A stretch of 32,886 bases of DNA from a virus: positions 1 through 32,886 of the IMG/VR virus record IMGVR_UViG_3300020172_004951; one strand, given 5' to 3'. Positions 1 to 32,532 of the stretch are shown here, in pieces. Both the position numbers and the translations under genes were made by a program. Numbering within the stretch: position 1 is the stretch's first letter; the number at the start of each line of letters is the position of its first letter. The notes below the pieces were generated by a model. It was not told the DNA's origin. It did no database searches and was given only the letters and a program-made list of their open reading frames with translations.

Positions 1-30
1 TCTGAAAAAACTAAGTTTAAAAATAGATGA
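1..30 (+). CDS. 3' end of an upstream gene (partial)
   Basis: Frame 1 is open from the window edge (SEKTKFKNR) to TGA at 28-30, which overlaps the ATG of the next gene as ATGA. This coupling is the same as elsewhere in the operon, so an upstream glycan gene probably ends here. Frame 2 is also open to a TAA at 34-36, so the frame is not certain. No function can be read from nine residues. Confidence 0.4.
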   Translation, partial: SEKTKFKNR

Positions 31-740
31 TAACTAAAAAAAAGGTATCAATTATAGTGTCTGCGTATGCTGCGGCTGACTATCTTAAAGAATGTCTAAA
101 TTCCATTAATAATCAGACCTATTTTGAAGATTTTAACGATTATGAAATATTAGTTGGAATAGACGGCTGTTCATCTACCTTAGCTGAAGTTAGTAAGTTT
201 AAGGAGACTATTCGAAATTTAAAAGTATTATGGTTTCCTACTAATTCTGGCCCATACCTAGTCTTCAACACCCTGATATCATTAAGTAAGTTTCAAGCTA
301 TTTCTATATTCGGGGCAGATGACATAATGGAAGAAAACTTCATTGAACATAATTTAAGTCTATTAAAAAATAAGTCCTGTGTTTTTGCTATGGGCTGCAA
401 CTTTACTCATCCGAACAAAGAAGAAAAACAAAAAAAATATAACCCAGAAGGTGTTATTATATTTAATAAATCTAATTTTTTATCAATTAACGGTTTTGAA
501 CCATGGCGCTGTGGAGCAGACAGCGATCTTAAAAATAGATTTAAAATACTCGGCCTAACTTTAATAAATGCTAACTCTGCTACTTATTTACGTAGATTAC
601 ATAAAAATAGTTTAACTGCGAGCGAAAACATATATGGGTTCGGTGGAGAGTATAGAATAAAAGTACAAAAAATAGTTAAAGCTAGACACAAAGCTAAGAT
701 AAAAAAATACAGTGTTCTTTCTCACTATCAAATAATTTGA
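27..740 (+). CDS. Family 2-type glycosyltransferase (GT-A fold)
   Basis: A 237-residue protein opening with the GT2 beta strand and turn (VSIIVSAYAAADYL, about residues 7-20), followed by the CLNSINNQTY helix and the IDGCSS strand end (about 45-50). GADD at 96-99 is in the place of the metal-binding DxD. GT-A enzymes of this type move a sugar from a nucleotide donor to a growing glycan at the cytoplasmic face of the membrane. No membrane segment is visible. It is the first complete gene of a run of same-strand glycan genes and is followed after five bases by another glycosyltransferase. Donor and acceptor cannot be deduced. The class is well supported; the specific role is inference. Confidence 0.8.
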   Translation: MITKKKVSIIVSAYAAADYLKECLNSINNQTYFEDFNDYEILVGIDGCSSTLAEVSKFKETIRNLKVLWFPTNSGPYLVFNTLISLSKFQAISIFGADDIMEENFIEHNLSLLKNKSCVFAMGCNFTHPNKEEKQKKYNPEGVIIFNKSNFLSINGFEPWRCGADSDLKNRFKILGLTLINANSATYLRRLHKNSLTASENIYGFGGEYRIKVQKIVKARHKAKIKKYSVLSHYQII

Positions 741-745
741 CATAT

Positions 746-1504
746 ATGAAGCCTAAAATAACAGTTGCCCTTCCGTTATACAATATGGGAAAAATAGTTG
801 AGCTTGCTCTACATGGTCTAGCTAATCAAGAGACGAACTATCCTTGGGAGTTAGTAATATGTGAGGAAAATTTAGGAGATTATTATGGTCTTAAAAAATT
901 TATGTCTTGGGAAAAAGATTTAAAGTCTAAAGGCTGTGTTAAGATACATTACATTCAATTAGAAGAATGGGTACCACTCGGACAAAAATGGAAAATTTTA
1001 GCGCAAGCGGCATCAAATACTGAGTGTTTCATTCTTCAAGCTGGTGATTGTCTATCACATAGTAAACGGCTTCAGGAGACATGTGATGCTTTTGAAAAGA
1101 TTAACTGTAATTATTATGATGAACAACAAGGATACTTTTATTCGTATGAATTAGATAAAACTATTATCTTCAATCCTACTGAACTCTATAAACACCCGTG
1201 TCGCTTAAACATGGCATGGTCGACACAATTGATAAAGAAGTTGCCGACTAATACTAGAAAAAGACTCGTTGATAGTTTCCTATTTTCTGAGCTTTCTAAA
1301 AAAGAGAAGATAGTTAAATTTAGAAATAATAGCTTCCATGATGATGGAGTAGACGCAGATGGATATAATAATATTTCAAGTCGATCTAAATTTTTTATGG
1401 AAGAATCTCAAATATTTCAGTTAACTAACATTGATTTAACTAATAAGATCCCAATCTTAAATAAATTTAAAGGCTTAGAACTTACTAAAAATAAAATAAA
1501 ATAG
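746..1504 (+). CDS. Second family 2-like glycosyltransferase
   Basis: I chose the ATG at 746 rather than the in-frame TTG at 737, because 746 leaves a five-base gap after the previous stop and starts directly with the GT2 opening strand (KPKITVALPLYNMGKIVE). The product is 252 residues. CFILQAGDCLS near residue 100 fits the DxD-bearing strand in weakened form (GD only), so the metal site is not classical. The strand ELVICEEN occupies the place of the usual nucleotide-contact segment. The C-terminal third is lysine rich and lacks a membrane anchor. It probably acts with its neighbours in glycan assembly; substrate unknown. A divergent GT2 without activity is possible. Confidence 0.65.
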   Translation: MKPKITVALPLYNMGKIVELALHGLANQETNYPWELVICEENLGDYYGLKKFMSWEKDLKSKGCVKIHYIQLEEWVPLGQKWKILAQAASNTECFILQAGDCLSHSKRLQETCDAFEKINCNYYDEQQGYFYSYELDKTIIFNPTELYKHPCRLNMAWSTQLIKKLPTNTRKRLVDSFLFSELSKKEKIVKFRNNSFHDDGVDADGYNNISSRSKFFMEESQIFQLTNIDLTNKIPILNKFKGLELTKNKIK

Positions 1505-1506
1505 CA

Positions 1507-2289
1507 ATGGTGATAAAACAAGCAAGAGTTTCCTTAACCTTAGAAAAATATTTTGGGAAAGAGTTTAGAAGTAAATGGAAATTAGAGAAGTATTATGATC
1601 CGAACTTACCAGCGATATTCTTAGGTCTATATAAGAATGAAGATTTTGATGCTTTTCTTTCCCATAAATCATTTAGATTATTTGTTTTAGGTGGATCTGA
1701 TATGACGCCTAAAAATTTTTTAAGATTACAGGAAGTAATAAATGACGGTAGAACTTTTACTTGTATGCACCCTGGTGAAATATCTAACACTCTATCTCAA
1801 AATAATATTCCTCATAAGCACATGTATATTCAGCTTAAAGACTATTCCAAATATAAACCTGTTCCACTGGGCGATAAGATATATGTCTATTTTGGTGCTT
1901 CTAGACAAGACTTATCTTACTATAAGTGGGAAGAAATAGTAGAGCCGCTAATCTCACAGTATGGTAAAGATAGAGTAATCTTCACAAAAAACCAAACATC
2001 AAACTATTTAATTAACTCAATATATCCTCAAGCATTTGTCTATGTTAAACCGGCAGTTACTGGAGGAACCACTACCATGTGGGAGCTCGGCCATATGGGA
2101 ATCAGAACATTAGGCAAAGGCGACCTACTTCCTCCTAATTTTACTCAATATTTTAATGTTGATCATTTAATCTCATTAATAACAGAAGAAGAAAAATACA
2201 TCAGTAAAACTAGAGTTGACGTTGCAACTGAAGTTAAAGAACTTTTTGAAACTTCTAAAAATTGGTTAGATTTAGATTTTTGGAAATAA
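1507..2289 (+). CDS. Putative GT-B-like glycosyltransferase
   Basis: A 260-residue protein starting two bases after the preceding stop. The best clue is PAVTGGTTTMWELGHMGI (about residues 183-200): a Gly-rich turn followed by TxxxE and a helix, resembling the donor-binding segment of GT-B glycosyltransferases, preceded by Rossmann-like strands (KIYVYFGAS, RVIFTKNQ). The N-terminal part also has strand/turn elements (FRLFVLGGSD). It is shorter than most GT-B enzymes (350-400), so it could be a minimal or divergent member. Its place between glycosyltransferases and WbqC supports a glycan role. I do not recognise a named family. Confidence 0.45.
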   Translation: MVIKQARVSLTLEKYFGKEFRSKWKLEKYYDPNLPAIFLGLYKNEDFDAFLSHKSFRLFVLGGSDMTPKNFLRLQEVINDGRTFTCMHPGEISNTLSQNNIPHKHMYIQLKDYSKYKPVPLGDKIYVYFGASRQDLSYYKWEEIVEPLISQYGKDRVIFTKNQTSNYLINSIYPQAFVYVKPAVTGGTTTMWELGHMGIRTLGKGDLLPPNFTQYFNVDHLISLITEEEKYISKTRVDVATEVKELFETSKNWLDLDFWK

Positions 2290-2304
2290 AATAATAACGA
2301 TTAA

Positions 2305-2982
2305 ATGAAGGTTTCAATATGTCAGTCTAATTATATTCCATGGAGAGGATATTTTGATCTAATTGCAAGTGCTGATGTCTTTGTTATCTATGATGAAGTC
2401 CAATATACTAAAAATGACTGGCGAAATCGCAACTTAATTAAAACAGCGACTGGTCTATCGTGGCTCACTGTTCCAGTAAGAAGAGAATCTATACATCAAA
2501 AAATAAATGAGACTTTAACTATGTCGACTGGTTGGGAGAGAAAGCACATAACTGCACTAACTTTAAATTATTCCAAGTCTCCATTTTTTCAAACGTATAA
2601 AGATGAAATATTTGAAATATACGAAAATTTTACTTCTTTATCTAACCTGAATGTCAATATGATTAAAAAAATATGTGAGATTTTAATGATAGATACTAAA
2701 ATAATAGATTCATCTGACTTGTGTTTAAGCGGCGATCGAAATTCAAAGTTAATTGATGCGTGCATAAAATTAAATGCAACTACCTACATATCTGGTCCAT
2801 CTGCCTCTTGTTATTTAGATACTGCTGCTTTTAACTTAAATAATATAAATGTTAACTGGATGGATTATTCAGGCTACTTAGAATATCCGCAAAGATTCGG
2901 CACATTTATCGGAAATGTCAGCATATTAGATTTAATCTTTAATATTGGCCCTAATTCTAAAAACTATTTAAAAAAACAATAA
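2305..2982 (+). CDS. WbqC family protein
   Basis: The 225-residue product matches the WbqC family along its whole length: MKVSICQSNYIPWRGYFDL at the N-terminus, VIYDEVQYTKNDWRNRNLIK (about 27-46), a WLTVPV strand, NVNMIKKICEILMI, and SGPSASCYLD near 165-175. WbqC proteins occur in O-antigen and capsule loci; their biochemical role is poorly defined, so I do not assign a reaction. Length is normal for the family. It lies directly before an SDR and an acyltransferase, so it probably handles the same activated sugar or its acceptor. The start follows an A/T-rich stretch without Shine-Dalgarno. Confidence 0.88.
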   Translation: MKVSICQSNYIPWRGYFDLIASADVFVIYDEVQYTKNDWRNRNLIKTATGLSWLTVPVRRESIHQKINETLTMSTGWERKHITALTLNYSKSPFFQTYKDEIFEIYENFTSLSNLNVNMIKKICEILMIDTKIIDSSDLCLSGDRNSKLIDACIKLNATTYISGPSASCYLDTAAFNLNNINVNWMDYSGYLEYPQRFGTFIGNVSILDLIFNIGPNSKNYLKKQ

Positions 2983-2983
2983 T

Positions 2984-4027
2984 ATGAAAAAAGACAAAAT
3001 AATTATTTTTGGAGCTTCTGGTTTTATCGGAACTTACCTAATTGATTCTTTACTAGATAACAACTATCAAGTATTAGCAATAGATTCAGATGACATGCTG
3101 TCTGACTATTATCTAGATAAAAAAATAGAGTATTTACAATTAGACTTACGAGATTCTAAAAAATTCAATGAGATAGACAGTACAGGTTGCACAACAGTTA
3201 TACAACTGGCGGCTCTCCAGCCTTCTAATTATAACCCAATGAAACATTCACCTAAGGATTACCTTGAGATTAATGCAGTCGGTACTCTTAACGTTTTAGA
3301 ATTTTGTAAAGACCGAAATATTCCTAAGATAATTTATGCAATGTCACATAGGAACACGTCTGGACATTGGGGAAAGATGAGCAAAGTAAGAGAGTCAGAT
3401 GGTATCTCACAAGAATACTTCGGTGAATACTCAATGTTTAGTATAGCTGAAAGTTGCGCTCATGAATGTGTAAAACATTACAGTGAAAGCTATAATATTA
3501 ATTCAATAGTTTTTAGGCTCCCTCCTGTTTATGGATACGGCCCTCACCTAGATATATTCAAAGGAGGCACACCAATACGGACTGGTTTTCAAACCTTTAT
3601 AGATCGTGCAATTTTAGGAAAAGCAATAGAGGTTTGGGGCAATCCTCACATAGGTAGAGACATAGTATACGTTAAAGATGTAGTTTCAGCATTTATTTGT
3701 GCGATTACTTCAGATTCTGCAAAGGGGCTCTATAATATATCTTCAAGCTATTCTCTAACTCTCTTAGAAGAAATTAAGACTATCATTGAGGTGTTTAACC
3801 AGACGAATAACATTGAGTTATTATTCTTTCCCGAAAAAACAAATTTTATAGACTGCTTTGTGTATGACAACAGTAAAGCAAAATTAGAACTAAATTGGAC
3901 TCCAGAGTATAACTTTAAAAGGATGCTAATTGACTACAAAAAAGAAAAAGAATCTAATAAATTCAGTTTCTTAATAAAAAAAAGAAAAAAAATGTTTGAT
4001 GAATTTGGAAAAACTAGAAGGCCTTGA
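2984..4027 (+). CDS. NAD-dependent epimerase/dehydratase-like SDR, degenerate active site
   Basis: A 347-residue extended SDR. The Rossmann motif GASGFIG (10-16) binds the dinucleotide, LQLDLRD (51-57) and LAAL (75-78) follow in the usual order, and FRLPPVYGYGPH (178-188) and GRDIVYVKDVV match the sugar-nucleotide side. Normally such enzymes epimerise or dehydrate nucleotide sugars. The catalytic YxxxK appears as Y149-S-M-F-S153, so the lysine is replaced by serine, and the catalytic Ser/Thr segment is also unusual (AMSHRNTSG). It may therefore bind rather than convert its ligand, or use another chemistry. It begins one base after wbqC and ends just before the acyltransferase. The fold is secure; activity is doubtful. 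Confidence 0.82.
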   Translation: MKKDKIIIFGASGFIGTYLIDSLLDNNYQVLAIDSDDMLSDYYLDKKIEYLQLDLRDSKKFNEIDSTGCTTVIQLAALQPSNYNPMKHSPKDYLEINAVGTLNVLEFCKDRNIPKIIYAMSHRNTSGHWGKMSKVRESDGISQEYFGEYSMFSIAESCAHECVKHYSESYNINSIVFRLPPVYGYGPHLDIFKGGTPIRTGFQTFIDRAILGKAIEVWGNPHIGRDIVYVKDVVSAFICAITSDSAKGLYNISSSYSLTLLEEIKTIIEVFNQTNNIELLFFPEKTNFIDCFVYDNSKAKLELNWTPEYNFKRMLIDYKKEKESNKFSFLIKKRKKMFDEFGKTRRP

Positions 4028-4031
4028 ATTT

Positions 4032-4535
4032 ATGGGCGAAAACGTAAAAGAAAAATTAAAGTCATGTGGTAAGCGAGTTAAGATTTATCCAATGGCAAAA
4101 ATAGTATCTCCTCATCTTGTTGAATTAGCAGATGACTGTAGAATTGGAGACTTTGTGTTTATCTTAGGCGGCACTGGTGTTAAAATCGGTAAAAATACTG
4201 ATGTTCAGCCTCATACCACCTTTTGGGGAGGAGGCCGCACTATAATCGGAGATAGAGTATCTACTGGCCCAGGAACAGTATTTTTATCCGCTACGTATTC
4301 TCATGCGGAGGGTCTAAGAATGGTTGATGGGCTACCTGAAGGTTCAACTGATACTTTAGGTGGTGTTTTGGAAGTAGGTGATGATGTATACATCGGTGCA
4401 AAGAGTGTAATAATGCCAGTTAAAATAGGTGAAGGCGCAGTAATAGGTGCAAATAGCTTCGTTAACAAAGATCTAGATCCTTGGGGCATTTATGTAGGCA
4501 GCCCAGCTAAAAAAATAGGTGAAAGAAAAAAATAA
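4032..4535 (+). CDS. Left-handed beta-helix sugar acyltransferase
   Basis: Hexapeptide repeats run through most of the protein (VKIGKNTDVQ, TIIGDRVSTG, LEVGDDVYIGAKSVI, VKIGEGAVIGANSFV), ending in the classic DLDPWGIYVGSPAKKIG. This is the LbH acetyltransferase fold, which moves an acyl group from acetyl-CoA or a related donor onto an amino or hydroxyl group of a sugar, usually as a trimer. I prefer ATG 4032, four bases after the previous stop (167 residues). Upstream in-frame starts at 3996 (TTG) and 3999 (ATG) overlap the SDR gene and add residues unlike the family. It sits next to an aminotransferase, the usual pairing for making an N-acylated amino sugar. Confidence 0.88.
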   Translation: MGENVKEKLKSCGKRVKIYPMAKIVSPHLVELADDCRIGDFVFILGGTGVKIGKNTDVQPHTTFWGGGRTIIGDRVSTGPGTVFLSATYSHAEGLRMVDGLPEGSTDTLGGVLEVGDDVYIGAKSVIMPVKIGEGAVIGANSFVNKDLDPWGIYVGSPAKKIGERKK

Positions 4536-4543
4536 TAAAAGTT

Positions 4544-5179
4544 ATGCCGATCAAATTACACAATCCTTATAAGATAGTTCAAATGTTCGAAGAGGAACTT
4601 GCTGAGTATACTGGTTCTAAGTATGCAGTAGCAGTTGATAGCTGTACAAGCGCTCTATTCTTGTGCTGCACTTACCTAAAGGTAAAAGAGGTAACTATCC
4701 CATCACACACATATCTTTCCGTTCCTATGAGCATACTACAAGCCGGTGGTGAAGTCGTATTTGACTGTAGTGTTCAAGCTAATCAATGGACTGGTGCATA
4801 TCAACTTTCTCCCTATCCGATATATGATGCAGCAAAGAGATTTACTTCAAATATGTACGTTCCAGATAGTTTTATGTGTCTTTCATTTCACATAAAGAAG
4901 AAGCTTGGAATAGGAAAAGGCGGAGCAATATTGACCAGTGATCCAGACGCAGTTGAGTGGTTTAAAAAGGCAAGATATGAAGGTAGAAGCGAAAAGTTCT
5001 ATAAAGAAGACGATATCACAAGTATTGGTTGGAACATGTATATGACTCCTCAAGAAGCTGCTCAAGGATTGGCTCTAATGCAAAACTATCCAGATCACAA
5101 TAGTGATTTAAATGAAGTAAACGGCTATCGTGATCTTACTGAGTTTACAATCTTTAAAAATAACAAAACAATAAAATGA
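4544..5179 (+). CDS. Half-size DegT/DnrJ/EryC1-type aminotransferase
   Basis: A PLP-dependent sugar aminotransferase domain: FEEELAEYTGSKYAVAVDSCTSAL (15-38), PSHTYLSVPMSILQAGGEVVFD (53-74), the cofactor aspartate in YDAAKRF (D95), and the Schiff-base lysine region SFHIKKKLGIGKGGAIL (114-130), where K119 aligns with the catalytic lysine. The family transfers an amino group to a keto sugar nucleotide. At 211 residues it is just over half the usual 370-400: the C-terminal small domain is missing, and the reading frame ends cleanly in an ATGA overlap with the next gene rather than in a visible frameshift. It may work with a partner or be a minimal enzyme. Confidence 0.85.
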   Translation: MPIKLHNPYKIVQMFEEELAEYTGSKYAVAVDSCTSALFLCCTYLKVKEVTIPSHTYLSVPMSILQAGGEVVFDCSVQANQWTGAYQLSPYPIYDAAKRFTSNMYVPDSFMCLSFHIKKKLGIGKGGAILTSDPDAVEWFKKARYEGRSEKFYKEDDITSIGWNMYMTPQEAAQGLALMQNYPDHNSDLNEVNGYRDLTEFTIFKNNKTIK

Positions 5180-5994
5180 AAGTTTCAGTAATTGGACTTG
5201 GCTTCGTAGGCTCTGCGATGTTTGAAAGTTTTAAACAAAAAGGAGTGACTGACCTAATTGGTTATGACAAATATAAAAAAATAGGTTCTTTGGAGTCTTG
5301 CTTAGAGTCAGATATAATCTTCTTATCTCTACCGACTCCTTATCAGGAAAGTACTGCAGAATACGACAAATCTGCAATCGTTGAGACTTTAACTTTTTTA
5401 GCAATTGAAAGTTTTACAGGTTTAGTTGTATTGAAGAGTACAGTTGAGCCTGAGACTACTGTTAATCTGTCTGGATTATTTTCAGGTCTTTCCATAATAC
5501 ACAATCCTGAGTTTTTAACTGAGCGTACTGCTCTTATCGATTTTAATAATCAGTCTCATATTGTGCTTGGGACTGGGCCTTCATGTGGAGGCGGACAGTT
5601 AAAAAAAGCAGTTGATTTCTATTCTAAGTTTTATCCAGACGCTAAGATATCTGTCTGTAGTTCTACTGAGTCTGAAAGCATGAAGATCTTTACTAATTCA
5701 TTCTATTCAGTCAAAGTTCAGTTCTTTAATGAGATTTATTTACTTTGTGAGAAGATGGGCTGTGCATACGAATCAGTTAGGGACCTTATGTTAGAAAACA
5801 ATTGGATAAATCCGATGCACACTCAAGTACCCGGCCCAGACGGGCTCCTAAGTTATGGAGGTTCCTGTTTTCCAAAGGACACGAGTGCACTACTTAAATA
5901 TATGAAGAAGTACAAAACTCCATCTAAGGTCTTGGAGGCAACTATAATAGAAAGAAACGAGATGAGACCCGATAAAACTAATATCATAAGCTAA
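5176..5994 (+). CDS. UDP-glucose/GDP-mannose dehydrogenase-like protein, short form
   Basis: The N-terminal NAD domain (VIGLGFVGSA, residues 5-14), SLPTPY (51-56), KSTVEP (87-92) and HNPEFLTE (109-116), and the central domain (ESMKIFTNSFYSVKVQFFNE, 167-186) are all present, as is the catalytic cysteine in GGSCFPKDT (C231). Enzymes of this family oxidise the C6 hydroxyl of a sugar nucleotide to a uronate. The protein stops at 272 residues, whereas typical members are about 400-450 and carry a C-terminal UDP-binding Rossmann domain that is absent here. It starts by ATGA overlap with the aminotransferase and ends by TAATG overlap with the next gene. Substrate is unknown. Confidence 0.87.
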   Translation: MKVSVIGLGFVGSAMFESFKQKGVTDLIGYDKYKKIGSLESCLESDIIFLSLPTPYQESTAEYDKSAIVETLTFLAIESFTGLVVLKSTVEPETTVNLSGLFSGLSIIHNPEFLTERTALIDFNNQSHIVLGTGPSCGGGQLKKAVDFYSKFYPDAKISVCSSTESESMKIFTNSFYSVKVQFFNEIYLLCEKMGCAYESVRDLMLENNWINPMHTQVPGPDGLLSYGGSCFPKDTSALLKYMKKYKTPSKVLEATIIERNEMRPDKTNIIS

Positions 5995-6824
5995 TGAAAC
6001 TTGGAGTATCATATATTGTGTTTGACGGAATAGAACTTCTAGAACACTCAATCAAACAGATAAGAAAACAAGTAGACTATGTACAAGTAGTCTATCAGAC
6101 TGAATCTTGGTTTGGCCACAAGATAAAAAATGAGGACCTAATTATTCTAAACTCTCTAAAAGTTAGAGGATTAGTCGACGAGCTAAGTAAGTTTTCTAAC
6201 TTTACTCCATTAAAAGACAGTATAGCTAATTCAATAGCTAGAGCAAAGTCATATGAAATGGAAAAGAGATATTTTGGTCTAAAGAGTGCTCTTAAAAAAG
6301 GCTGCACTCATTATCTTTGCATGGACGTTGATGAGTTTTATATAGAAGAACAGTTCGCTGCTGCCAAGTCAGAGATCGAGAAAAAAGATTATAGTTTGAC
6401 TGCTGTTCGATTCATAAATTATGTAAAACTCCCCACCTTACATCGAGGATATGATCCTTCTCGAGTACCTTTTATCTGTAAAATCAACGAGTCTTCCAAG
6501 ATGACTAATCGGTTTTTCGTAAGATGTGATCCTACTAGAGGAATATCATCTAATCCAACAACTACTCATGAGTTTGACAATAATATCATCACCATGCATC
6601 ACATGGAAACTGTGAGAAAGGATCTTAAGATAAAATATGAAGCGACAACCCGGGCACTATTTAAGAGATCAAGCGCAAGTACTCTCATCAATAGCATAAA
6701 TAAGGTTAGTCACGCAAATCCGGAACTAAATTTTAATAAGATCATATTTCCTGCCCTAGATAATATAAAACTTAGACCTTGTGAAAATATATTTAAAATA
6801 CCATACGAAGAGTGGAAAAAGTAA
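5994..6824 (+). CDS. Glycosyltransferase-like protein with DxD motif
   Basis: The 276-residue product has the layout of a GT2/GT92-type transferase for which the sequence shows MDVDEFY (DVD at 111-113) as the metal and nucleotide-diphosphate site, an N-terminal strand-helix (GVSYIVFDGIELLEHSIKQI), and a histidine-rich ITMHHMET segment that could contribute to the active site. No membrane helix is seen. It starts within the stop codon of the dehydrogenase gene and overlaps the next gene by 13 bases. Probable role: sugar transfer in the cluster's glycan. The assignment rests on the DxD strand and context. Confidence 0.65.
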   Translation: MKLGVSYIVFDGIELLEHSIKQIRKQVDYVQVVYQTESWFGHKIKNEDLIILNSLKVRGLVDELSKFSNFTPLKDSIANSIARAKSYEMEKRYFGLKSALKKGCTHYLCMDVDEFYIEEQFAAAKSEIEKKDYSLTAVRFINYVKLPTLHRGYDPSRVPFICKINESSKMTNRFFVRCDPTRGISSNPTTTHEFDNNIITMHHMETVRKDLKIKYEATTRALFKRSSASTLINSINKVSHANPELNFNKIIFPALDNIKLRPCENIFKIPYEEWKK

Positions 6825-7699
6825 AGATAATTGGTGAGATTGGGCTGAATTATGCATATGGTAAAGATACTAGTCTTTTTATAAGTAACGTCAAGCGGCT
6901 AATTGACGTTGCTGTTATTGCCGGTTGTAGTTATGTAAAGTTCCAAAAGAGAAATCCTGACGTATGTGTGCCTGAAGCAGAAAAGAGTAAACCTAAACTC
7001 GTTCCTTGGAGAAAAGAAGAGACTACTTACTTGCAGTACAAAAAAGATATTGAGCTTTGGGAAAGGGAATACGATGAGATCGATGATTACTGTAGAGAGA
7101 AAGGAATCAACTGGTTTGTATCAGCCTGGGACAAGGATTCTGTCGATTTTATGCGAAAGTATCATACTCAGCTGCCGAATGGAAAACATGGCGTCATGGT
7201 AAAGATACCTTCTGCCCTAATAACTGATCTCGACCTTCTTACCTATGCTAATGACTGCTGTGATGAAGTATTGATTTCTACTGGAATGAGTAAGCAGTCA
7301 GAAATAGACGCAGCGATTGTTGCAGCTCAGCCTGGAGTAGTTTTTCACACTAATTCAACCTATCCTTCGCCTAATCATGAATTAAACCTTGACTATATTA
7401 CTTACTTGAAACATATCTCTAGTGAATTCGATAGAGCGTTTGAAGTTGGCTATTCTGGTCATGAATTTGGACTCACAACAACAGTTGCAGCCTCAGTAAT
7501 AGGCGCAACTTGGATAGAACGCCACATAACTCTAGACAGAACCCTTTGGGGTAGCGATCAGATGGCCTCAGTTGAGCCTCAAGGTCTAATTAAATTGGTA
7601 AAAAGCATACGTGACGTTGAATCATCTCGTGGAGGATATGGCGCTAGAGAAGTTTTACCTTCTGAGATGCAAAAGAGAAAAACGCTAAGAGGAAAATAA
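6812..7699 (+). CDS. NeuB-type nonulosonate (sialic-acid-like) synthase, no SAF domain
   Basis: The TIM-barrel domain of NeuB/LegI/PseI synthases, which condense phosphoenolpyruvate with an N-acetylhexosamine to make a nine-carbon acid. Visible family motifs: GEIGLNYAYG (8-17), VKFQKR (42-47), LISTGMSKQSE (154-164), HTNSTYPSP (179-187), GYSGHEFG (213-220) and ERHITLDRTLWGSDQMAS (236-253). Family members usually run to about 340-350 residues with a C-terminal antifreeze-like SAF domain; this one ends at 295 just after the barrel. The start is GTG at 6812 inside the previous gene; no ATG precedes the first strand. Precise sugar (sialic, legionaminic, pseudaminic) cannot be told. Confidence 0.88.
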   Translation: MEKVKIIGEIGLNYAYGKDTSLFISNVKRLIDVAVIAGCSYVKFQKRNPDVCVPEAEKSKPKLVPWRKEETTYLQYKKDIELWEREYDEIDDYCREKGINWFVSAWDKDSVDFMRKYHTQLPNGKHGVMVKIPSALITDLDLLTYANDCCDEVLISTGMSKQSEIDAAIVAAQPGVVFHTNSTYPSPNHELNLDYITYLKHISSEFDRAFEVGYSGHEFGLTTTVAASVIGATWIERHITLDRTLWGSDQMASVEPQGLIKLVKSIRDVESSRGGYGAREVLPSEMQKRKTLRGK

Positions 7700-7710
7700 G
7701 TAAAGCCGAT

Positions 7711-8016
7711 ATGTCTAGGAAAATAACAATCAAAAATGTGCTTCAATTTATCGAAGGAAACGCTAAAATGTTTGGTGATTATATTGACCTGTTGCCTCAG
7801 CATGAAAAAGAACAGGTAGTCTATCGTAGCTGGGTATGTAGAGAAGACTGTATTAAGTTAGGCTATTGCAAACAGTGTGGGTGCTCGGTTCCTGGCAAAC
7901 TTTACGTAAAGGAGTCATGTAACGATGGTGAACTTTTCCCAGACCTAATGGATTCAACTGCTTGGCAAGAATACAAGGAACTAAAAAAAATAAACTTAGA
8001 TGAATTACTTCATTGA
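7711..8016 (+). CDS. Conserved phage-type protein with cysteine cluster, unknown function
   Basis: A 101-residue protein I cannot assign to a function. It has six cysteines (C43, C47, C53, C56, C58, C70) in CREDCIKLGYCKQCGC...ESC, a spacing compatible with one zinc site or a small iron-sulphur site. The N-terminal half is helical (VLQFIEGNAKMFGDYIDLL) and the C-terminus is acidic. It lies between neuB and a HAD gene and its end overlaps the HAD start by 17 bases, so it is translationally linked to the glycan operon but need not act on sugars. Confidence 0.7.
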   Translation: MSRKITIKNVLQFIEGNAKMFGDYIDLLPQHEKEQVVYRSWVCREDCIKLGYCKQCGCSVPGKLYVKESCNDGELFPDLMDSTAWQEYKELKKINLDELLH

Positions 8017-8299
8017 TATTGATGATACTATACTTGAGCTAATGGTAAAGACAGATTACTGTACAGCCATCGCAATTCCAGAAGCAATCGCAAAGGTGAA
8101 CTCGCTATATGAAGAAGGTCACCATATCGTTTTGTGGACTGCCCGAGGAACCGTTACTGGCAGAGACCTTTCTCAACTTACTAAATTACAGCTAGAGGAG
8201 TATGGTGTTAAATACCACGAGCTTAGGTTCGGTAAACCTGCATACGATGTTTTTATAGATGATAAGGCGATAAATGCTAGAGAATGGTTAAAGAGCTAA
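8000..8299 (+). CDS. Small HAD-superfamily phosphatase
   Basis: A compact HAD enzyme of 99 residues. Motif I is DIDDT (6-10, nucleophile D6, acid D8), motif II is TAR in VLWTARG (about 44-50), and the acidic motif is VFIDDKAIN (about 84-92), preceded by a GKPAYD lysine. Such short capless HADs in capsule and sugar loci dephosphorylate small sugar phosphates; here removing phosphate from a nonulosonate or hexosamine precursor is plausible but unproven. It overlaps both neighbours (17 and 16 bases), indicating coupled translation. Confidence 0.8.
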   Translation: MNYFIDIDDTILELMVKTDYCTAIAIPEAIAKVNSLYEEGHHIVLWTARGTVTGRDLSQLTKLQLEEYGVKYHELRFGKPAYDVFIDDKAINAREWLKS

Positions 8300-8892
8300 A
8301 AATACTCGTCCTAGGCAACGATCCTCAAATAAATCAAATTGACTTTAGCCGACTTGACCCTAGTGTGATCACGCTTGGTGTTAATCGAATCTGGTTAAAA
8401 CACATACCTAAGTTCTTTTTCTTTAACGATTTTGAGATACTTAAAGAACTTGAGATGCAGCCTGATGTAGTCAAGGCACTAGTCTCAAAATCACAGTGTT
8501 TTAGTAGCGACTGGTTAAATAAGCCAAGAAAAATAAAAAATTTGCCAGACTGGGTTAAGGTCTATGATCGGCCCAATAAAAAGTCTCTACCTGATTCAGT
8601 AACGACTGCTATTTCCATATTTAAGTCGCAATATCTTAATTATCGCACCGCTACTTTTTATGTTGCAGGAGTATCGTTAAAATGGACAAACCCTAGTCAT
8701 TTTTGGAAAGAGTTAGATTATGATTCTTTAAATAAACATGATGAAAAGTGGTATGATCCTAGGTTTAAGCTAATACTAGAAAACTTTAAAAATCTATCTA
8801 CTAAAAATAACAGCATAGTCTCAGTGCATCCAGACTCTCTACTCAATAAATACTATCGGTATGAAGGTATTGAAAATCTCTACGTAAATTAA
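8284..8892 (+). CDS. GT42/DUF115-like putative sialyltransferase
   Basis: A 202-residue protein whose opening resembles Campylobacter Cst-II-type sialyltransferases: an LGND loop (10-13) followed by IDFSRL (19-24), then GVN (N34) and FFFND (N48) at positions that correspond to nucleotide-contacting asparagines in that family. Later, DSVTTAISIFKSQYL (104-118) precedes FYVAGVSL (125-132), and VHPDSLLNKYY (181-191) resembles the CPNSLL segment near the family's C-terminus. H152 in KHDEKWYDPR could be the catalytic base. The resemblance was judged from remembered family features, not a search. A NeuB-type synthase four genes upstream fits. Its TAA overlaps the stop codon of the convergent tail gene. 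Confidence 0.5.
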   Translation: MVKELKILVLGNDPQINQIDFSRLDPSVITLGVNRIWLKHIPKFFFFNDFEILKELEMQPDVVKALVSKSQCFSSDWLNKPRKIKNLPDWVKVYDRPNKKSLPDSVTTAISIFKSQYLNYRTATFYVAGVSLKWTNPSHFWKELDYDSLNKHDEKWYDPRFKLILENFKNLSTKNNSIVSVHPDSLLNKYYRYEGIENLYVN

Positions 8893-17598: not shown

Positions 17599-19164
17599 TT
17601 ATTTTAGGGTCGTATACTCTCCCTTAACGAGGTTAATATGTTGTGCCTTGCCGTTTTCATGAATGATTACGTGTGAGTGTAGCCATCCACTGGCACCTAT
17701 GTTATAACCTACTCTTAATTTAGTTGAAGTCCCAACTGCTAGTGCACCGTCCTTTCTACCTGGCGAGTGGTAGTGACCTACTACTATCTTGGTGTTTAGA
17801 TTTCTAAATTGCTGTAGAGATCCTCTACTTCCACTAGCACCTATATCACCATGCTGACCTAATTCCCAACCATTAACAATATAACTATCACTTCTTCCTA
17901 ATGTTACAAAGTGAGGATATTTATTATTTATCACCCAAGGTATCACACCATTCGGTGCATCTCCGCTTAAGATAGCGGCAGAGTATTGCATGTATTCTAG
18001 TGAGTTCTTTGGAGTAATTGCTTTTCTCCAATCTGTGTTCTTTAACCACCTATCCAGAAAATCATCGTGGTTGCTTCGAACTATTACTGTGTTATAATCC
18101 TCAAACACTTCAAGTCCTTCTAAGAGGTCTTCTATCTCAGTACGTAGAGAATTAGTACCCTCCATTTCTTTTTGATACTGGATGAATGGATCCTTTTCTT
18201 CATGGTGACTAATCGATTTACCGTCAAATACGTCATGTAATATTACGTGGTCTGGATTTATCTTTTCCATTAATGAAACAGTAGTATCGAACACCCTCTG
18301 ATCATGATGACCATAATGGATGTCTCCCCAAATTAAAGCAGAGACTCGATCCACTTCATCAACTCGACTCTCGCCGTCTTGTAAACTCACCTTATAGAAA
18401 AGATCACAGAAATTTCCATCTTCAGTAGCTGTGACCTGTCTCATGAAAAAGATATCGTTTCCTTTTATCTCAACTACAACAAAACCCAAAGTATGGTGAA
18501 ACTCTCCCTTCTTACCTGCTCTAGAGTCAGTATAATTAGTTATAGTACAGGCACCAGTAGTCAACATCATCTTAGGTACGCTACCTTCTAGTACAGGTAT
18601 CATTTCCATCTGTACTTTAGGCGAACCAAACACGCATGAGTTTATTCCGCTCATGCCTTGTAGACCAGTCATCGGGTTTACTGCAGTCGGTTGAATCTTA
18701 ATGTCTGACATGATTGATACATACTTGTGAATATCGTGGCGGTTTGCATCTAGATACTTCTCTATTCTCTTAGACCAAACATCACAACCTTCATCAGTAA
18801 AAATAGATGTTGGGTTCCTATATCTGCCAGCAATAACATGAATGTCTGCATTTATAAAATCAGCATAGGTCTCCATATTCAGAATAAAATTATCATGGAC
18901 TGGGGTATCGTTCTGTGCCCAAGTTATGATAAATCTCTTCTTTCTTTTATTAAAAGATTTTGCTTTTGCTAGTTTTAATTGAGGTGATTCCTCTTGTGTC
19001 TTAGTAGTCAGTCCTAATTTAGATACCCATCTTTCTACTGTTCTGCTTGAAACGTCATAATGATCTGCAAGAGAAGCTATTCGTTTTTCCCAAGAGAGTT
19101 CTTTATTAAAGTAAGTTTCGCTAATTTTAATCTTGTCATTTTCTGTTAATTCTTTAAATCTCAT
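17599..19164 (-). CDS. HTH-metallophosphoesterase protein (phage T5 A1-like candidate)
   Basis: A 521-residue two-part protein. Residues 24-50 form a resolvase/sigma-like helix-turn-helix (RIASLADHYDVSSRTVERWVSKLGL). A calcineurin-like phosphoesterase follows with all metal ligands: GDIH (280-283), LHDVFDG (309-315), RSNHDD (363-368), QHGD (437-440) and GHYH (463-466). Large phage phosphoesterases of this sort include T5 A1, which is required for host DNA degradation, so a DNA-acting nuclease is a reasonable guess; A1 similarity is from memory and unverified. It lies between the virion genes and the ligase-NMNAT fusion; an AT hairpin separates it from the latter. Confidence 0.78.
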   Translation of the reverse strand: MRFKELTENDKIKISETYFNKELSWEKRIASLADHYDVSSRTVERWVSKLGLTTKTQEESPQLKLAKAKSFNKRKKRFIITWAQNDTPVHDNFILNMETYADFINADIHVIAGRYRNPTSIFTDEGCDVWSKRIEKYLDANRHDIHKYVSIMSDIKIQPTAVNPMTGLQGMSGINSCVFGSPKVQMEMIPVLEGSVPKMMLTTGACTITNYTDSRAGKKGEFHHTLGFVVVEIKGNDIFFMRQVTATEDGNFCDLFYKVSLQDGESRVDEVDRVSALIWGDIHYGHHDQRVFDTTVSLMEKINPDHVILHDVFDGKSISHHEEKDPFIQYQKEMEGTNSLRTEIEDLLEGLEVFEDYNTVIVRSNHDDFLDRWLKNTDWRKAITPKNSLEYMQYSAAILSGDAPNGVIPWVINNKYPHFVTLGRSDSYIVNGWELGQHGDIGASGSRGSLQQFRNLNTKIVVGHYHSPGRKDGALAVGTSTKLRVGYNIGASGWLHSHVIIHENGKAQHINLVKGEYTTLK

Positions 19165-28130: not shown

Positions 28131-29561
28131 ATGGAAGACCTTGAAAAAAAAATAAAAAAACTAGATTTAAAGCAAAACGCTATTAAACTTTTGATTAACT
28201 CTATATACGGCGCGTTTGGTAATAAGTGGTTCTACTTCTACGATCCAGACATTGCACAGTCTATAACTTTACAGGGGCAAGACCTTATTAAATTCTCAAT
28301 TAAAGCAGTCAACCATTACTTCTTAGAAAAGTGGCACCTAGATACTGAACTACACGAGACGCTCGGTCTATCAAAATATGTCATAACTAAAGTAGAAGAC
28401 GAAGCTGCGATCTATACTGATACTGACTCTATCTATGTTCAATTTGATTCAGCAATTGATTCTATTCAAGGCGCAGACTTTACCAAAGATGAGATAATGT
28501 ATCTCTGTATCAATATAGACAGATATCGTCTTTCTAGTTATTTTGATCAGTGTTTTGAGAAATATGGTAAAATTTTTAATACTCAAAACCGTCTTAAGTT
28601 TAAGTTAGAAAATCTTTCAGAACATGGAATTTGGTTAAAGAAGAAGAATTATACAATTAAAGTAGCCTATGAACCTAATCCAAATTACGAAATTATACCT
28701 AAAGAGAAAAGATATTTAGTGATAAAGGGTCTAGAACCAATAAAAGGTTCCTATCCTATTTGGGCTAGACGAAAACTAGTCACACTTACTGAATTTATCT
28801 TAGAGCGAGGCAAGAGACTTAATATCGAAGACGATATCATTCCTAAACTACAAGCGCTTAAAGATGAAGCTAGGACTTTAACTATCGATGATCTTTCATT
28901 CAACTACAATATTCGAGTATATGAGAAGTATGTGACTAGCGAGGCCAGACTAGAAATTAAAAAAGGTATCTCAATATATCCTAGAGCATCTGTGTATTAT
29001 AATCATCTTTTAATAAAAACTGGTTTAATTAATAGGTATCCTAAAATTAGAGAAAAGGACAAGATAAAGTTTTATTATTGCTCAGAAAATGATAATGACT
29101 TTGATGTATTTGCATACGTACCTGGTTCATTTCCAGCAGAGATAGCTATGCCTATGGATCTAGATTCTCAATTCTTTACTCTAATTGTTGAACCTGTAAA
29201 TCGTCTTCTTACTTCAATGAGGATGAGTTCACTAGACCCAAACCTAAAGAGAGCAGTTGCAGTTGTGAAGGCAAAAGGTAAAAAAGCAGAAGACGATGCT
29301 AACCTGTACCCATTATATTTAGTCAATCAAGATTCTTTAGAATATGAAGAAGTTCCTGAAAAGTTTTGGAGAATACTAGGAAACCCAGATGCTGATGTAT
29401 GTGAGGCAGATTTCCCAGAGTACTTGACAATTTTAACAAAATACGGGCTAGACACAATTGTTGTCCCAAAAATGGAGCTTGAAAAATACATAAAACGATT
29501 GACTAAGAAGAAGGAAAAAGGTATGGAAGTTGAAGACTTAGTTGAAGAAGAAAATGTTTGA
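28131..29561 (+). CDS. 43: Family B DNA polymerase, C-terminal part only (split gp43)
   Basis: A 476-residue protein that starts immediately before motif B: KLLINSIYG (19-27) then motif C YTDTDS (95-100), and the KKNYTIKV motif near 178-185; the C-terminal thumb follows. The 3'-5' exonuclease domain and motif A (DxxSLYP) are missing. An in-frame TAA at 28122-28124 just six bases before the ATG rules out a longer frame. The other half must be encoded elsewhere. In T4, motif A is at about residue 408 and motif B near 560, so the break lies between palm and fingers. Split gene 43 is known from some Aeromonas T4-like phages, and Rhodothermus phage RM378 has separate exonuclease and polymerase genes. 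It overlaps the primase gene by eight bases. Confidence 0.88.
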   Translation: MEDLEKKIKKLDLKQNAIKLLINSIYGAFGNKWFYFYDPDIAQSITLQGQDLIKFSIKAVNHYFLEKWHLDTELHETLGLSKYVITKVEDEAAIYTDTDSIYVQFDSAIDSIQGADFTKDEIMYLCINIDRYRLSSYFDQCFEKYGKIFNTQNRLKFKLENLSEHGIWLKKKNYTIKVAYEPNPNYEIIPKEKRYLVIKGLEPIKGSYPIWARRKLVTLTEFILERGKRLNIEDDIIPKLQALKDEARTLTIDDLSFNYNIRVYEKYVTSEARLEIKKGISIYPRASVYYNHLLIKTGLINRYPKIREKDKIKFYYCSENDNDFDVFAYVPGSFPAEIAMPMDLDSQFFTLIVEPVNRLLTSMRMSSLDPNLKRAVAVVKAKGKKAEDDANLYPLYLVNQDSLEYEEVPEKFWRILGNPDADVCEADFPEYLTILTKYGLDTIVVPKMELEKYIKRLTKKKEKGMEVEDLVEEENV

Positions 29562-30687
29562 TTTTTTAGTGAGCTACAGCATACATGATTTTGTAAAGGA
29601 CCTACTTAAGAAAAAGTTTCCAGGTTCCAATTTAAAACAACAGATCTTTGATGCTGGTGATAAACTAAATTTTGCCTGTCCATTTTGTGGTGACTCAAAG
29701 AAGGATCCAAAAAAGAAGAGAGGTAACCTGTATCTTACTACTCATACCTATAAGTGTTATAACGACGGTTGCGGAGCAAAGGCTGATCTTACTGGATTCG
29801 TTTCAGCATTTGCCGGTAAGTATTCACTAGGTATTCCATCCATCTCCAATGAAAAACCAAAGTTTGAACTACTGACTCACTCTAAGAAGAGAGGATCGAT
29901 GTTTGAGAAATTTATCAGTCTAAACGCAGGTTCACAATTGATGAAACTTACGGAGTTAGCTGAAAGGTTTTCATTAAAGCCGTGTTCCGAAGCTAAGAGC
30001 GGCTCTGCAGTCTACGATTTTATAGAATCTAGAAACCTTGAAGTATTGCCCGACTTTAATAAGATTGCTTATTTTGATTCTAAGGACGATAAAGTATTTC
30101 TTTTCAACATAGACTATAAGTCAGACCGAGTATTAGGATTTGCAATTAGGCGACTTGGAGAATCATATGGTCCTAAGTATCTGATAAAGAACTATGCTGA
30201 GTTTAATAAAAACGGTCTAGTAAAGGGCATGAGCCAAGAAGTAATACACGAAGTAGATTCCCTAAACAATTACTTCAACATTCTTAATATCGATTTTACA
30301 AAGGATGTGATCGTTACAGAAGGTCAGATAGATGCCTTGTTCATTTTTAATTGTGTCGCCACTACAGGTGTCTCAAAGAGCCGATTACTATTGGAAAATC
30401 TACTCACCAAAAGAAACGCTAAGATCTTTTTTGATAATGATTTGGCAGGAAAAAGACAGTCGATTGAATTAATCAAAAAAGGATACTCTGTCTTCCTTTG
30501 GTCCAAATTTATTTCTGACTTAGCTAAGACTTACCCAAGTAATAGAATACAGCTCAAGCTAATTAAAGACATCAATGATGCTTATTCTATGCTCGTAAAG
30601 ATAGATAAAAAGACAAGCATAGAGTCTTTTAATATTCTCATAAATAAGTATTTTTCTGACTCTGAGTTAGACATGCTTTTCATATGA
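29554..30687 (+). CDS. 61: DNA primase, gp61/TOPRIM type
   Basis: I start it at ATG 29554, which overlaps the polymerase stop by eight bases; TTG 29542 in the same frame is less likely. The product of 377 residues has an N-terminal zinc site (C42, C45, C68, C73 in ACPFCGD...YKCYNDGC) and a TOPRIM core: VIVTEGQIDALF (E256, G257, D260) and FFDNDLAGK (D294, D296). This is the primase layout that makes RNA primers for lagging-strand synthesis with the gp41-type helicase. Its location after the polymerase half makes a replication operon. Confidence 0.85.
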   Translation: MFDFLVSYSIHDFVKDLLKKKFPGSNLKQQIFDAGDKLNFACPFCGDSKKDPKKKRGNLYLTTHTYKCYNDGCGAKADLTGFVSAFAGKYSLGIPSISNEKPKFELLTHSKKRGSMFEKFISLNAGSQLMKLTELAERFSLKPCSEAKSGSAVYDFIESRNLEVLPDFNKIAYFDSKDDKVFLFNIDYKSDRVLGFAIRRLGESYGPKYLIKNYAEFNKNGLVKGMSQEVIHEVDSLNNYFNILNIDFTKDVIVTEGQIDALFIFNCVATTGVSKSRLLLENLLTKRNAKIFFDNDLAGKRQSIELIKKGYSVFLWSKFISDLAKTYPSNRIQLKLIKDINDAYSMLVKIDKKTSIESFNILINKYFSDSELDMLFI

Positions 30688-30707
30688 ATCTAAAAAAACG
30701 TTAAGGA

Positions 30708-31427
30708 ATGGAACTAAGTAAATATCTAACAATCATAATTCCCTGTAAAAACGAAAAGCGTATTATCGAAAAGACACTCGACCTGTTAAATTATCAAGTT
30801 GATATACTTAACGTGAAAGTTGTTGTGTGTGATGCATCAAACGATGGAATTACAAAACCCGATCTATTGAATAGATTAGAATCTGAACATAGCACCGATA
30901 TATTTGATTTACAGTTAGCTGATGGCGGTCTGCCTGCACGAGCAAGAAACAACGGGTTTAAACTAGTAGATACACCATATGTCTTGTTTATGGATGCTGA
31001 CGTCTTTATCTTGGACCCTAAGTGCATCAAGAGAGCATTTTTGAAAATATACAAAAATAAATTAGACTTAGTTACCACAAAGTTTAGAAGCGATAATGGC
31101 AAATATAATTACATATATCGTCTTTTTGATATTCTACAAATAATTTCAAAATGGTCTACTCCTTTTTGTTTAGGCGGATTTATGATGGTTAGATCAGAAA
31201 CATTCAAAGACCTTAAAGGATTTGATGAGGAGATCAAAGTAGCCGAAGATTATTATTTCTCAAAACAAATTAAACCAAAAAAATTCGGACGGATAAACAA
31301 TATTGTATTTACGCCACCTAGACGATTTGAAAACAAAGGATTATTCTATATGGTCAAACTTTTTTTCGGTTCATTTTTTAATCATAACAATAAAGAGTAT
31401 TTTACAAAAGATAAAAATTATTGGTAA
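30708..31427 (+). CDS. Family 2 glycosyltransferase outside the main glycan cluster
   Basis: A 239-residue GT-A enzyme: YLTIIIPCKNEKRIIEKTLD (6-25), VVVCDASNDG (38-47), GLPARARNNGF (74-84) and MDADVF (95-100) as the DxD strand, followed by FCLGGFMMVRSETF and FDEEIKVAEDYYFS as the acceptor side (ED catalytic base). It resembles the dolichol-phosphate-mannose-synthase-like branch, without a membrane anchor. It is 20 bases after the primase and next to the LpxH-like gene, suggesting a pair that acts on a lipid-linked sugar or lipid A. Confidence 0.85.
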   Translation: MELSKYLTIIIPCKNEKRIIEKTLDLLNYQVDILNVKVVVCDASNDGITKPDLLNRLESEHSTDIFDLQLADGGLPARARNNGFKLVDTPYVLFMDADVFILDPKCIKRAFLKIYKNKLDLVTTKFRSDNGKYNYIYRLFDILQIISKWSTPFCLGGFMMVRSETFKDLKGFDEEIKVAEDYYFSKQIKPKKFGRINNIVFTPPRRFENKGLFYMVKLFFGSFFNHNNKEYFTKDKNYW

Positions 31428-31456
31428 TCAAAATTAGTATTAAAAAATAAGTAGCA

Positions 31457-32170
31457 ATGAAAGCTTGGAAAACCGTAATTATGAGCGACCTTCATTTGGG
31501 TGCAAGACAATCTCAAACTGACAAGATATTAAAGTTTCTAGAGGAAAACGAGATGGACACCCTAATCTTGAATGGAGATATAATTGATGGGTGGGCTATT
31601 AGAAGTAATGGCAAATGGACAAACGACTGTACAAAGATAATTAGAAAAATAATAAAGTTATCGGAGGGTGCTACCAAAGTAATCTATATTAGAGGAAATC
31701 ACGATGACTTTCTGAAGGACTTTATCCCATTCAAGTTAAACAACATTAAAATTGTTAGAATGTATAATCATGTTGGTGTAGATGGCAGAAACTACTATTG
31801 TTTTCATGGAGATGTATTGGACTTTATTATCATGAAAGCGCGATGGTTAGCTGTAGTCGGTGGATGGTCATATGATCTAGTCATAAAGTTAAACACGATC
31901 TATAATAGAGTCAGAAAAACTTTTAATTTAAAATATCATTCACTTGCAAATGACATTAAACAGTCAGTGAAGGGAGCAATTAATTTTGTTTCTGACTTTG
32001 AGATGGGCGCACGTGGCCTAACTAGAGAAAAAGGATATGATGTTGCAGTCTGCGGCCATATTCACCAGCCTAAGCTCGAAGACGACTATATGAACTCTGG
32101 AGATTTTTGTGAAAACTCAACATGCCTAGTCGAAGATAAGAAAGGAAACTGGAAAATCTTAACTATCTAA
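31457..32170 (+). CDS. LpxH/UDP-2,3-diacylglucosamine diphosphatase-like phosphoesterase
   Basis: A 237-residue calcineurin-like phosphoesterase with the COG2908 layout: MSDLHLGAR (9-17), NGDIIDGW (39-46), IRGNHDD (78-84), FHGDVLD (116-122), WLAVVGGWSYD (130-140), and VCGHIHQPK near 196-204. In LpxH the reaction is cleavage of UDP-2,3-diacylglucosamine to lipid X in lipid A synthesis. A phage copy could alter lipid A supply or process another nucleotide-linked lipid sugar. It follows a glycosyltransferase and precedes a late element, so it is not part of a virion operon. The family is well supported, its substrate is not. Confidence 0.82.
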   Translation: MKAWKTVIMSDLHLGARQSQTDKILKFLEENEMDTLILNGDIIDGWAIRSNGKWTNDCTKIIRKIIKLSEGATKVIYIRGNHDDFLKDFIPFKLNNIKIVRMYNHVGVDGRNYYCFHGDVLDFIIMKARWLAVVGGWSYDLVIKLNTIYNRVRKTFNLKYHSLANDIKQSVKGAINFVSDFEMGARGLTREKGYDVAVCGHIHQPKLEDDYMNSGDFCENSTCLVEDKKGNWKILTI

Positions 32171-32192
32171 ATCTCTTGTTATTATAAGAGAT
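32171..32192. repeat. Short hairpin after the LpxH-like gene
   Basis: ATCTCTT (32171-32177) pairs with AAGAGAT (32186-32192) across an 8-base loop, starting directly after the stop codon of the phosphoesterase gene. Its right arm overlaps a late-promoter-like element, so it may end the early transcript or expose the promoter. Confidence 0.45.
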
Positions 32193-32199
32193 AAATAAT
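32190..32199 (+). promoter_or_regulatory. T4-type late promoter-like element
   Basis: GATAAATAAT, 15 bases upstream of the ATG at 32215 and overlapping the right arm of a hairpin at 32171-32192. Same core as the other five sites. Confidence 0.6.
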
Positions 32200-32214
32200 C
32201 AAAAAATAAATCTT

Positions 32215-32532
32215 ATGAATAAAATCATGTCATTAAGACAATTCGCTTCTAAAAAAATAAATGAAGACGAGTCTGCAGAAGAGATGATAGTTGTTGACAC
32301 CGCATTATTAGATGAACTAGTTGAACTTGTTGGTTCTGAAGAAGAAGTTGAGCAGGCTGCAATAGCTGCTCATGCTGAATTGGAAGAAGCATTTAATAAC
32401 GAAGATCTTGAATTGTCTGAAGAAGACATTCCTGAAAACCTTGCAGTTGCTTCACTAGTATTAAAATTGGTTGAACTTGGTTCTCTTGACCCAAGGGATG
32501 CAGACGAATTGATTGCAAAATACATAGGTTAA
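32215..32532 (+). CDS. Small acidic late protein, putative prohead core/internal protein
   Basis: A 105-residue protein with the start MNKIMSLRQFASKKINEDES, a capsid-targeting-like peptide, and a strongly acidic, helical remainder (ELVELVGSEEEVEQAAIAAHAEL, NNEDLELSEED). Composition fits a prohead core or scaffold-associated protein, as T4 gp67/gp68-like proteins are small and charged. A GATAAATAAT element sits 15 bases upstream. It immediately precedes the gp4 head-completion gene, which supports a head role. Confidence 0.62.
   Translation: MNKIMSLRQFASKKINEDESAEEMIVVDTALLDELVELVGSEEEVEQAAIAAHAELEEAFNNEDLELSEEDIPENLAVASLVLKLVELGSLDPRDADELIAKYIG

Follow-up and report, generated by a model that had tools for sequence, protein, structure and literature searches.

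Genomic context of the gene pair

Which reaction do a glycosyltransferase and a phosphoesterase, encoded side by side between the replication and head genes of a phage, carry out in the infected cell? The pair in question lies in the viral record IMGVR_UViG_3300020172_004951, which was analysed over its full length of 32,886 bases (hereafter the window). The window contains T4-type replication and head genes, identified with PHROG profiles (primase, part of a DNA polymerase, PhoH and head closure), and a T4-like portal protein (PF07230) was found by Pfam in a close relative, L238. The pair reported by the initial annotation is indeed encoded there: both open reading frames (ORFs) are present and match their Pfam families above the cut-offs (9e-17 for PF00535 and 1.5e-14 for PF00149), with the GT2 glycosyltransferase gene upstream of the phosphoesterase gene on the same strand and 29 bp between them (Table 1). 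The pair was also correctly placed outside the glycan operon, since the sugar genes, with a Pfam match in six of the ten ORFs scanned, lie in the first 8.9 kb, and the pair stands between the primase and head-closure genes. A promoter and terminator scan gave results no better than shuffles.

Table 1. Position of the gene pair, its neighbours and the sugar operon in the window
Feature	Position	Strand	Description
Primase	29542–30687		Directly before the pair; phrog_47
Segment holding the cassette	30688–32214		From the primase stop to the gene at 32215
GT2 glycosyltransferase	30708–31427	+	239 aa ORF; PF00535
Metallophosphoesterase	31457–32170	+	237 aa ORF; PF00149
105-aa gene	32215–32532		Unassigned; between the pair and the head-closure gene
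Head-closure gene	starts at 32537		phrog_218
Sugar operon	27–8892 (~0–8.9 kb)		GT2, WbqC, epimerase, DegT-type aminotransferase, UDP-sugar dehydrogenase and NeuB domains

Elsewhere in the window, only a C-terminal part of DNA polymerase B is encoded (28131–29561; phrog_1918 and the end of phrog_262), and the polymerase may be split, the gene upstream of this part being on the opposite strand. The ORF at 17599–19164 has a strong match (1.7e-152) to phrog_1745, annotated as 'DNA transfer protein', in a phage with T4-type genes, and a weaker metallo-phosphoesterase match as well.

The pair is an accessory cassette, as it is absent from the same junction in six relatives (L238–L243), where the primase gene is followed by the homologue of the gene at 32215 and there is no GT2 or phosphoesterase match. 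The gap between these two genes is 26 bp in L238–L241 and 32 bp in L242, and the aligned pieces of L243 have the same spacing as those of L242. Three other relatives, L004–L006 (the same contigs as L235–L237), share the gene order of the window including the pair. The phosphoesterase is conserved at 76–98% identity, over the whole or nearly the whole protein, in 42 other viral loci (L004–L045, among the best 80 or fewer of the scan), and in L007–L045 it is found (76–92%) together with the GT2, unless cut by a contig end, without any of six neighbouring genes tested. These conserved relatives and the invariant metal ligands (see below) argue that the pair is not due to chance.

The phosphoesterase is PlcP-like

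Under phosphate starvation, the phospholipase C PlcP works with a glycosyltransferase to replace phospholipid by glycolipid. The initial annotation had called the window phosphoesterase LpxH-like and suggested that a phage copy of LpxH, which acts in lipid A synthesis, might remodel the outer membrane, a reading that our analysis does not support. Both LpxH equivalog cut-offs were missed (42.0 of 134 bits for NF003743 and 30.5 of 190.35 for TIGR01854), and the protein scored 298.5 bits with a profile built from 50 bacterial PlcP-like sequences, versus 44.3 bits with one built from seven LpxH sequences. The corresponding ranges for 35 viral representatives are 280–372 and 34–67 bits, in a comparison where the PlcP-like profile is not independent of the viral family, because its 50 sequences were found with that family as bait. 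Against the same PlcP-like profile, the seven LpxH sequences reached 37–57 bits and a Sinorhizobium meliloti gene from outside the profile set reached 373 bits. The latter shares 36% identity with the window phosphoesterase over 98% (E 8e-56), and adjoins genes for an acyl-homoserine-lactone synthase and LuxR, a neighbourhood that we take to be the plcP (SMc00171) locus.

Matches in plasmid records came from Sinorhizobium, Sphingomonas, Parabacteroides and others, the best 25 of 31 showing 31–41% identity over 96–100%. Escherichia coli LpxH (L070) gave no tblastn match to the window phosphoesterase at E ≤ 1, and among six Bacteroidota LpxH-like genes only L229 matched (25% identity, E 1e-8). 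One Algoriphagus genome encodes two paralogues, an LpxH-like one (80.4 bits) and a PlcP-like one (37.5 bits, both against TIGR01854). We also note that the record CP090106.1 (L065) is labelled S. meliloti plasmid pSymB, with 3.72 Mb; the quorum-sensing genes on it are presumably chromosomal in S. meliloti, and the label may be wrong.

The metal ligands D11, H13, D41, N81, H117, H201 and H203, plus H82, are invariant in all 45 aligned sequences, and the dinuclear metal centre is complete in the window phosphoesterase. The structural model (pLDDT 83) bears out the LpxH-like fold that had been proposed, including the helical lid (Z 18.6, 183 residues, 3.7 Å), with lid residues 126–139 and 167–175 poorly modelled; the closest solved folds in the structure comparison were those of LpxH, and no PlcP structure was among the matches. 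Thus, the fold and metal centre of LpxH and the window enzyme are alike, whereas the sequence family, the cut-offs, the residue at the Arg80 position and the place in the tree differ. Motif III of the window enzyme reads GNHD, with His where LpxH has Arg80 (GNRD), which is weak evidence by itself because Bacteroidota LpxH-like paralogues also read GNHD. In the excerpts of their paper, Okada et al. describe Arg80, which binds the beta phosphate, as specific to LpxH, and consider that PaLpxH2 likely has a different substrate (PMC5016852).

In a tree of 102 rows, with very long LpxH branches, LpxH was split off with a support of 99, and in a repeat of 76 rows, after removal of 11 rows that were long or odd and of 15 others by thinning, at 100/100. 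The window phosphoesterase groups with the PlcP-like proteins, for which the S. meliloti gene, assigned through its neighbourhood, served as reference, apart from LpxH. LpxH was the outgroup of the PlcP tree in extracts of an mBio 2022 paper (PMC9239053). In view of the missed cut-offs, the separate tree placement and the much closer S. meliloti gene, the LpxH reading was rejected: the LpxH-type label appears wrong, and on family placement the enzyme belongs with PlcP, its likely substrate being membrane phospholipid. The interpretation first given to the locus is partly supported, as remodelling of the host envelope is retained in a wider sense, with a phospholipid as likely substrate, and the lipid A route is not.

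The window belongs to a viral clade of 26 rows (100/95) in the 76-row tree, and this clade joins one of 21 Bacteroidota and Verrucomicrobiota rows (98/87) with a support of 100/100. A second viral clade, with six rows (100/100) in this tree and nine in the 102-row tree, stands beside proteobacterial PlcP-like proteins (81/88), the viral row L211 is placed next to a SAR86 genome (84/91), and a separate branch of the 76-row tree is formed by phage Mosig. From these scattered placements, viruses probably took up the plcP-like gene several times. Proteins with a type IX secretion sorting domain (PF18962) are encoded near the L007 cassette, upstream of the L269 GT2 and, among 21 long viral records, in the two that contain L016 and L181, which points to Bacteroidota hosts for parts of the window's clade. 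The record MT836169.1 (L001), labelled 'Bacteriophage sp.', has a gene order resembling a Bacteroidota chromosome and not a phage, and in both trees the PlcP-like gene of this record is placed within those of Bacteroidota.

The GT2 partner

All 32 viral homologues of the GT2 share residues D96 and D98 (DXD), E180 and D181 (ED) and, towards the C-terminus, RR and YW without variation, and the active sites of both enzymes are intact. The AlphaFold2 model of the GT2 (pLDDT 93.6) shows a GT-A fold, with Foldseek matches to GT-A GT2 enzymes such as TarP, TarS and PcManGT. We propose that the product is a diacylglycerol glycosyltransferase. Agt belongs to GT4 and has the GT-B fold, so that the window partner is of a different family, but its function may be the same as that of Agt.

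In a search for a cellular source of the GT2, 197 of 296 Bacteroidota genomes gave a GT2 match at E ≤ 1e-12, the best cellular relative having E 1.2e-28, and all those fetched were distant. None of the 20 fetched Bacteroidota loci (flanks of about 1.5 kb) has a phosphoesterase beside the cellular GT2 relative.

Pairing of the phosphoesterase with glycosyltransferases

The same pair recurs in related phages, a check proposed with the initial annotation. A glycosyltransferase is encoded within 1.5 kb of the phosphoesterase in 123 of 133 viral loci (GT2 in 112, GT4 in 10 and PF13528 in one), and in 31 of 35 viral representatives at 80% identity. As a control, none of 1098 viral ORFs at least 2.5 kb away matched the three glycosyltransferase profiles, which does not mean that they are free of glycosyltransferases, as only homologues of these profiles are seen and a GT2-looking ORF (L016:983–1939) is uncounted. 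The GT2 profile was derived from the loci on which it was then counted, and the GT4 profile was built without the PlcP–GT4 fusions. For the viral and bacterial sets, at most the 80 best loci were taken from each scan; they are not random samples, and some contigs are in several sets. Greedy ORF calling gave no phosphoesterase ORF in 25 of 226 loci, three of which (L063, L064 and L070) contain none of this type. Five of the viral loci lacking a glycosyltransferase end within about 1 kb of the gene on one side (L039, L046, L055, L059 and L212) and five are not cut by a contig end (L170, L171, L172, L176 and L177).

When the GT2 was used as bait, the phosphoesterase was found downstream in 36 of 38 loci, some of them cut by a contig end, the exceptions being L269 and L286. 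A 4-base overlap between the two reading frames is seen in several relatives (e.g. L007, where the GT2 ends at 6004 and the phosphoesterase starts at 6001), and in L013, L026–L029 and L157 a small gene of GNAT size, confirmed by Pfam in L028, lies between the members of the pair.

In bacteria, 50 of the 80 loci have a glycosyltransferase (22 of the PF13528 type, 22 GT4 and six fused PlcP–GT4), a count that may be low, since phosphoesterase positions came from tblastn and glycosyltransferases from greedy ORFs; one of 263 far ORFs matched in the control. The 39 genes scanned downstream of bacterial PlcP-like genes gave 21 PF13528 and 18 PF13439 matches, with a transporter family instead in three. 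The fusions occur in six Verrucomicrobiota (L079, L096, L105, L114, L135 and L140), with GT4 and PlcP in one ORF of 647–665 aa, possibly a one-protein lipid remodeller. Together, the PlcP–GT4 fusion and the exchange of glycosyltransferase families point to one shared intermediate, of which diacylglycerol is the known example. In L079:3855–5831, the one fusion scanned with Pfam, the GT4 domain is N-terminal and the PlcP-like domain C-terminal.

Link to phosphate

In phage Mosig a PF12849 (PstS-type) gene lies beside the plcP-like gene and is divergently transcribed, and L189 carries in succession a PF12849 gene, the plcP-like gene, a single ORF and GT4. A 12-of-14 match to the Pho box precedes the PF12849 gene of L189 and was reached in one of 300 local shuffles; this site is only suggestive, since the overall count over 135 viral loci equals expectation (8 observed, 8 expected). 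Neither the window nor the intergenic region of Mosig contains a Pho-box-like site, and the phage gene may use phage promoters instead. The PF12849 gene is present in two of 21 long viral records, that of L189 and that of L211 (in the latter not near plcP), both outside the window's clade, and in none of the 17 long viral records of that clade. For the window, we infer that phosphate salvage is plausible.

Proposed function and alternatives

We propose, with a probability of about 0.68, that the pair is a viral lipid-remodelling cassette which, in the infected cell, turns phospholipid into diacylglycerol and this into glycolipid. The PlcP-like phosphoesterase, with two metal ions and a helical lid to take up acyl chains, would cut the phosphorylated head group off host membrane phospholipids, leaving diacylglycerol, to which the GT2 would move a sugar from a nucleotide sugar, so that a glycolipid is formed and the membrane stays intact. 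Phosphate freed in this way could be used to make phage DNA, and the change in the membrane could also have an effect on later infections. This proposal has its direct basis in the family placement, the active sites, the conserved pairing, the glycosyltransferase replacement, the bacterial fusions and the presence or absence of the cassette; the substrates, the sugar, expression during infection and the benefit are what we infer. A wider proposal, for which we see even odds, is that phages of several host groups carry this two-step machinery, assembled repeatedly from PlcP and one of three unrelated glycosyltransferase families. In this view the GT2 would be a diacylglycerol glycosyltransferase of a new kind, and the membrane would provide a store of phosphate for viral DNA.

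A true LpxH altering lipid A synthesis, as first suggested, would account for the shared fold with its lid, the weak LpxH profile matches and the naming of relatives in public records as UDP-2,3-diacylglucosamine hydrolase or diphosphatase, but we regard it as very improbable, given scores far under the cut-offs, a position apart from LpxH in both trees and the much closer S. meliloti gene; the His at the Arg80 position (PMC5016852, excerpts) also speaks against it, though Bacteroidota LpxH-like paralogues share it. It is unlikely, though less so, that the pair acts on another lipid or a polyprenyl carrier and changes the cell surface, for example excluding later phages. The GT2 fold is closest to surface-polymer glycosyltransferases, the same phage has a sugar operon, and some viral copies adjoin RimK-type ATP-grasp or GNAT genes, all of which would suit such a role; yet the pair lies outside the sugar operon, and the three unrelated glycosyltransferase families and the fusions fit one acceptor made by PlcP, diacylglycerol.

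The replication neighbourhood would also fit a DNA-directed pair, with an SbcD-like nuclease and a DNA-base glucosyltransferase, and there are weak PHROG matches to SbcD and exonuclease families besides the position after the primase. We consider this extremely unlikely, as the pair also occurs where the replication genes tested are absent, six relatives lack it and the phosphoesterase is PlcP-like.

The lipid-remodelling reading has a close cellular counterpart in the PlcP–Agt pathway of Pelagibacter, Pseudomonas, Methylosinus and others, where, as in the window, a PlcP-like gene lies beside a glycosyltransferase gene, and whose phosphoesterase is of the same family by tree and profile. Extracts of the literature describe PlcP and Agt as acting in MGDG and GADG synthesis (PMC4796936, PMC8528852), SAR11 Agt as giving MGDG and GADG in E. 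coli (Sebastian et al.), and a gene for a non-phosphorus lipid enzyme as adjoining plcP in about two-thirds of strains (PMC4796936). In the P. aeruginosa plcP mutant of Jones et al., MGDG is lost and GADG much reduced, and Agt1 and Agt2 are needed for the two lipids (excerpts of PMC8528852). The window pair differs in being viral, in having a GT2 and not a GT4, located upstream and not downstream, and in that no Pho box or phosphate-uptake gene was seen beside it. In Bacteroidota, the PlcP-like protein that joins the viral clade at 100/100 is associated with a PF13528/PF04101-type glycosyltransferase, of another family than that of the window (the PF13528 type adjoins the PlcP-like gene in 22 of the 80 bacterial loci, the best of the scan). 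A list of lipid remodelling upon phosphate depletion includes the Flavobacterium johnsoniae PlcP (Fjoh_4577) and a PF04101 glycosyltransferase (Fjoh_0541, PhoBR operon), which, unlike the pair in the window, are at separate loci (PMC8115612, in extracts).

Two cultured phages encode relatives annotated as UDP-2,3-diacylglucosamine hydrolase/diphosphatase, Pelagibacter phage Mosig (34% identity) and Synechococcus phage S-SRM01 (29%). Unlike in the window, the gene listings show no glycosyltransferase directly adjacent in either phage; Mosig has the PstS-type gene as a neighbour, which the window lacks, and in S-SRM01, a very long branch in the 102-row tree, annotated glycosyltransferases are about 5.5 kb away. 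No report of a phage-encoded PlcP was found in the literature searched, which covers few subscription papers. The Mosig announcement is without the terms lipid, phosphate and UDP (PMC7892664), and extracts of a study of infected Pseudoalteromonas at low phosphate describe changes in phospholipid synthesis and recycling without the word PlcP (PMC12282109). The cassette stays hidden because databases name the enzyme as LpxH-type and because at least one catalogue, the conservative version of a global ocean viral metabolic-gene catalogue, excludes contigs with glycosyltransferases (PMC11360552, from its excerpts).

At least 580 stretches of the viral collection encode a relative of the phosphoesterase at E ≤ 1e-3, not all of which need be PlcP, and the viral cassette may therefore be common. 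Bacteria widely respond to a lack of phosphate by remodelling their lipids, and phage DNA has a high phosphate content. If our proposal is true, infection itself can turn the membrane into a phosphate source and alter the cell envelope.

Other genes beside the cassette

A gene for a RimK-type ATP-grasp protein adjoins the PlcP-like gene in L046, L053, L216, L218, L221 and L226 (Pfam on three of them), which could represent another lipid head-group route; in L053 a PF13528-type glycosyltransferase is also encoded near these two genes. YceI proteins are lipid binders, and a YceI-domain gene (PF04264) follows the cassette region in L269 (3825–4376, by Pfam), with a similar one, judged by eye, in L007 (6809–7360). 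A class 3 lipase gene (PF01764) is located just upstream of the GT2 and PlcP-like genes in L047 (4052–4792), and in L054 (3346–5292) a papain-family protease with an intein domain (PF14890) is encoded directly upstream of the pair.
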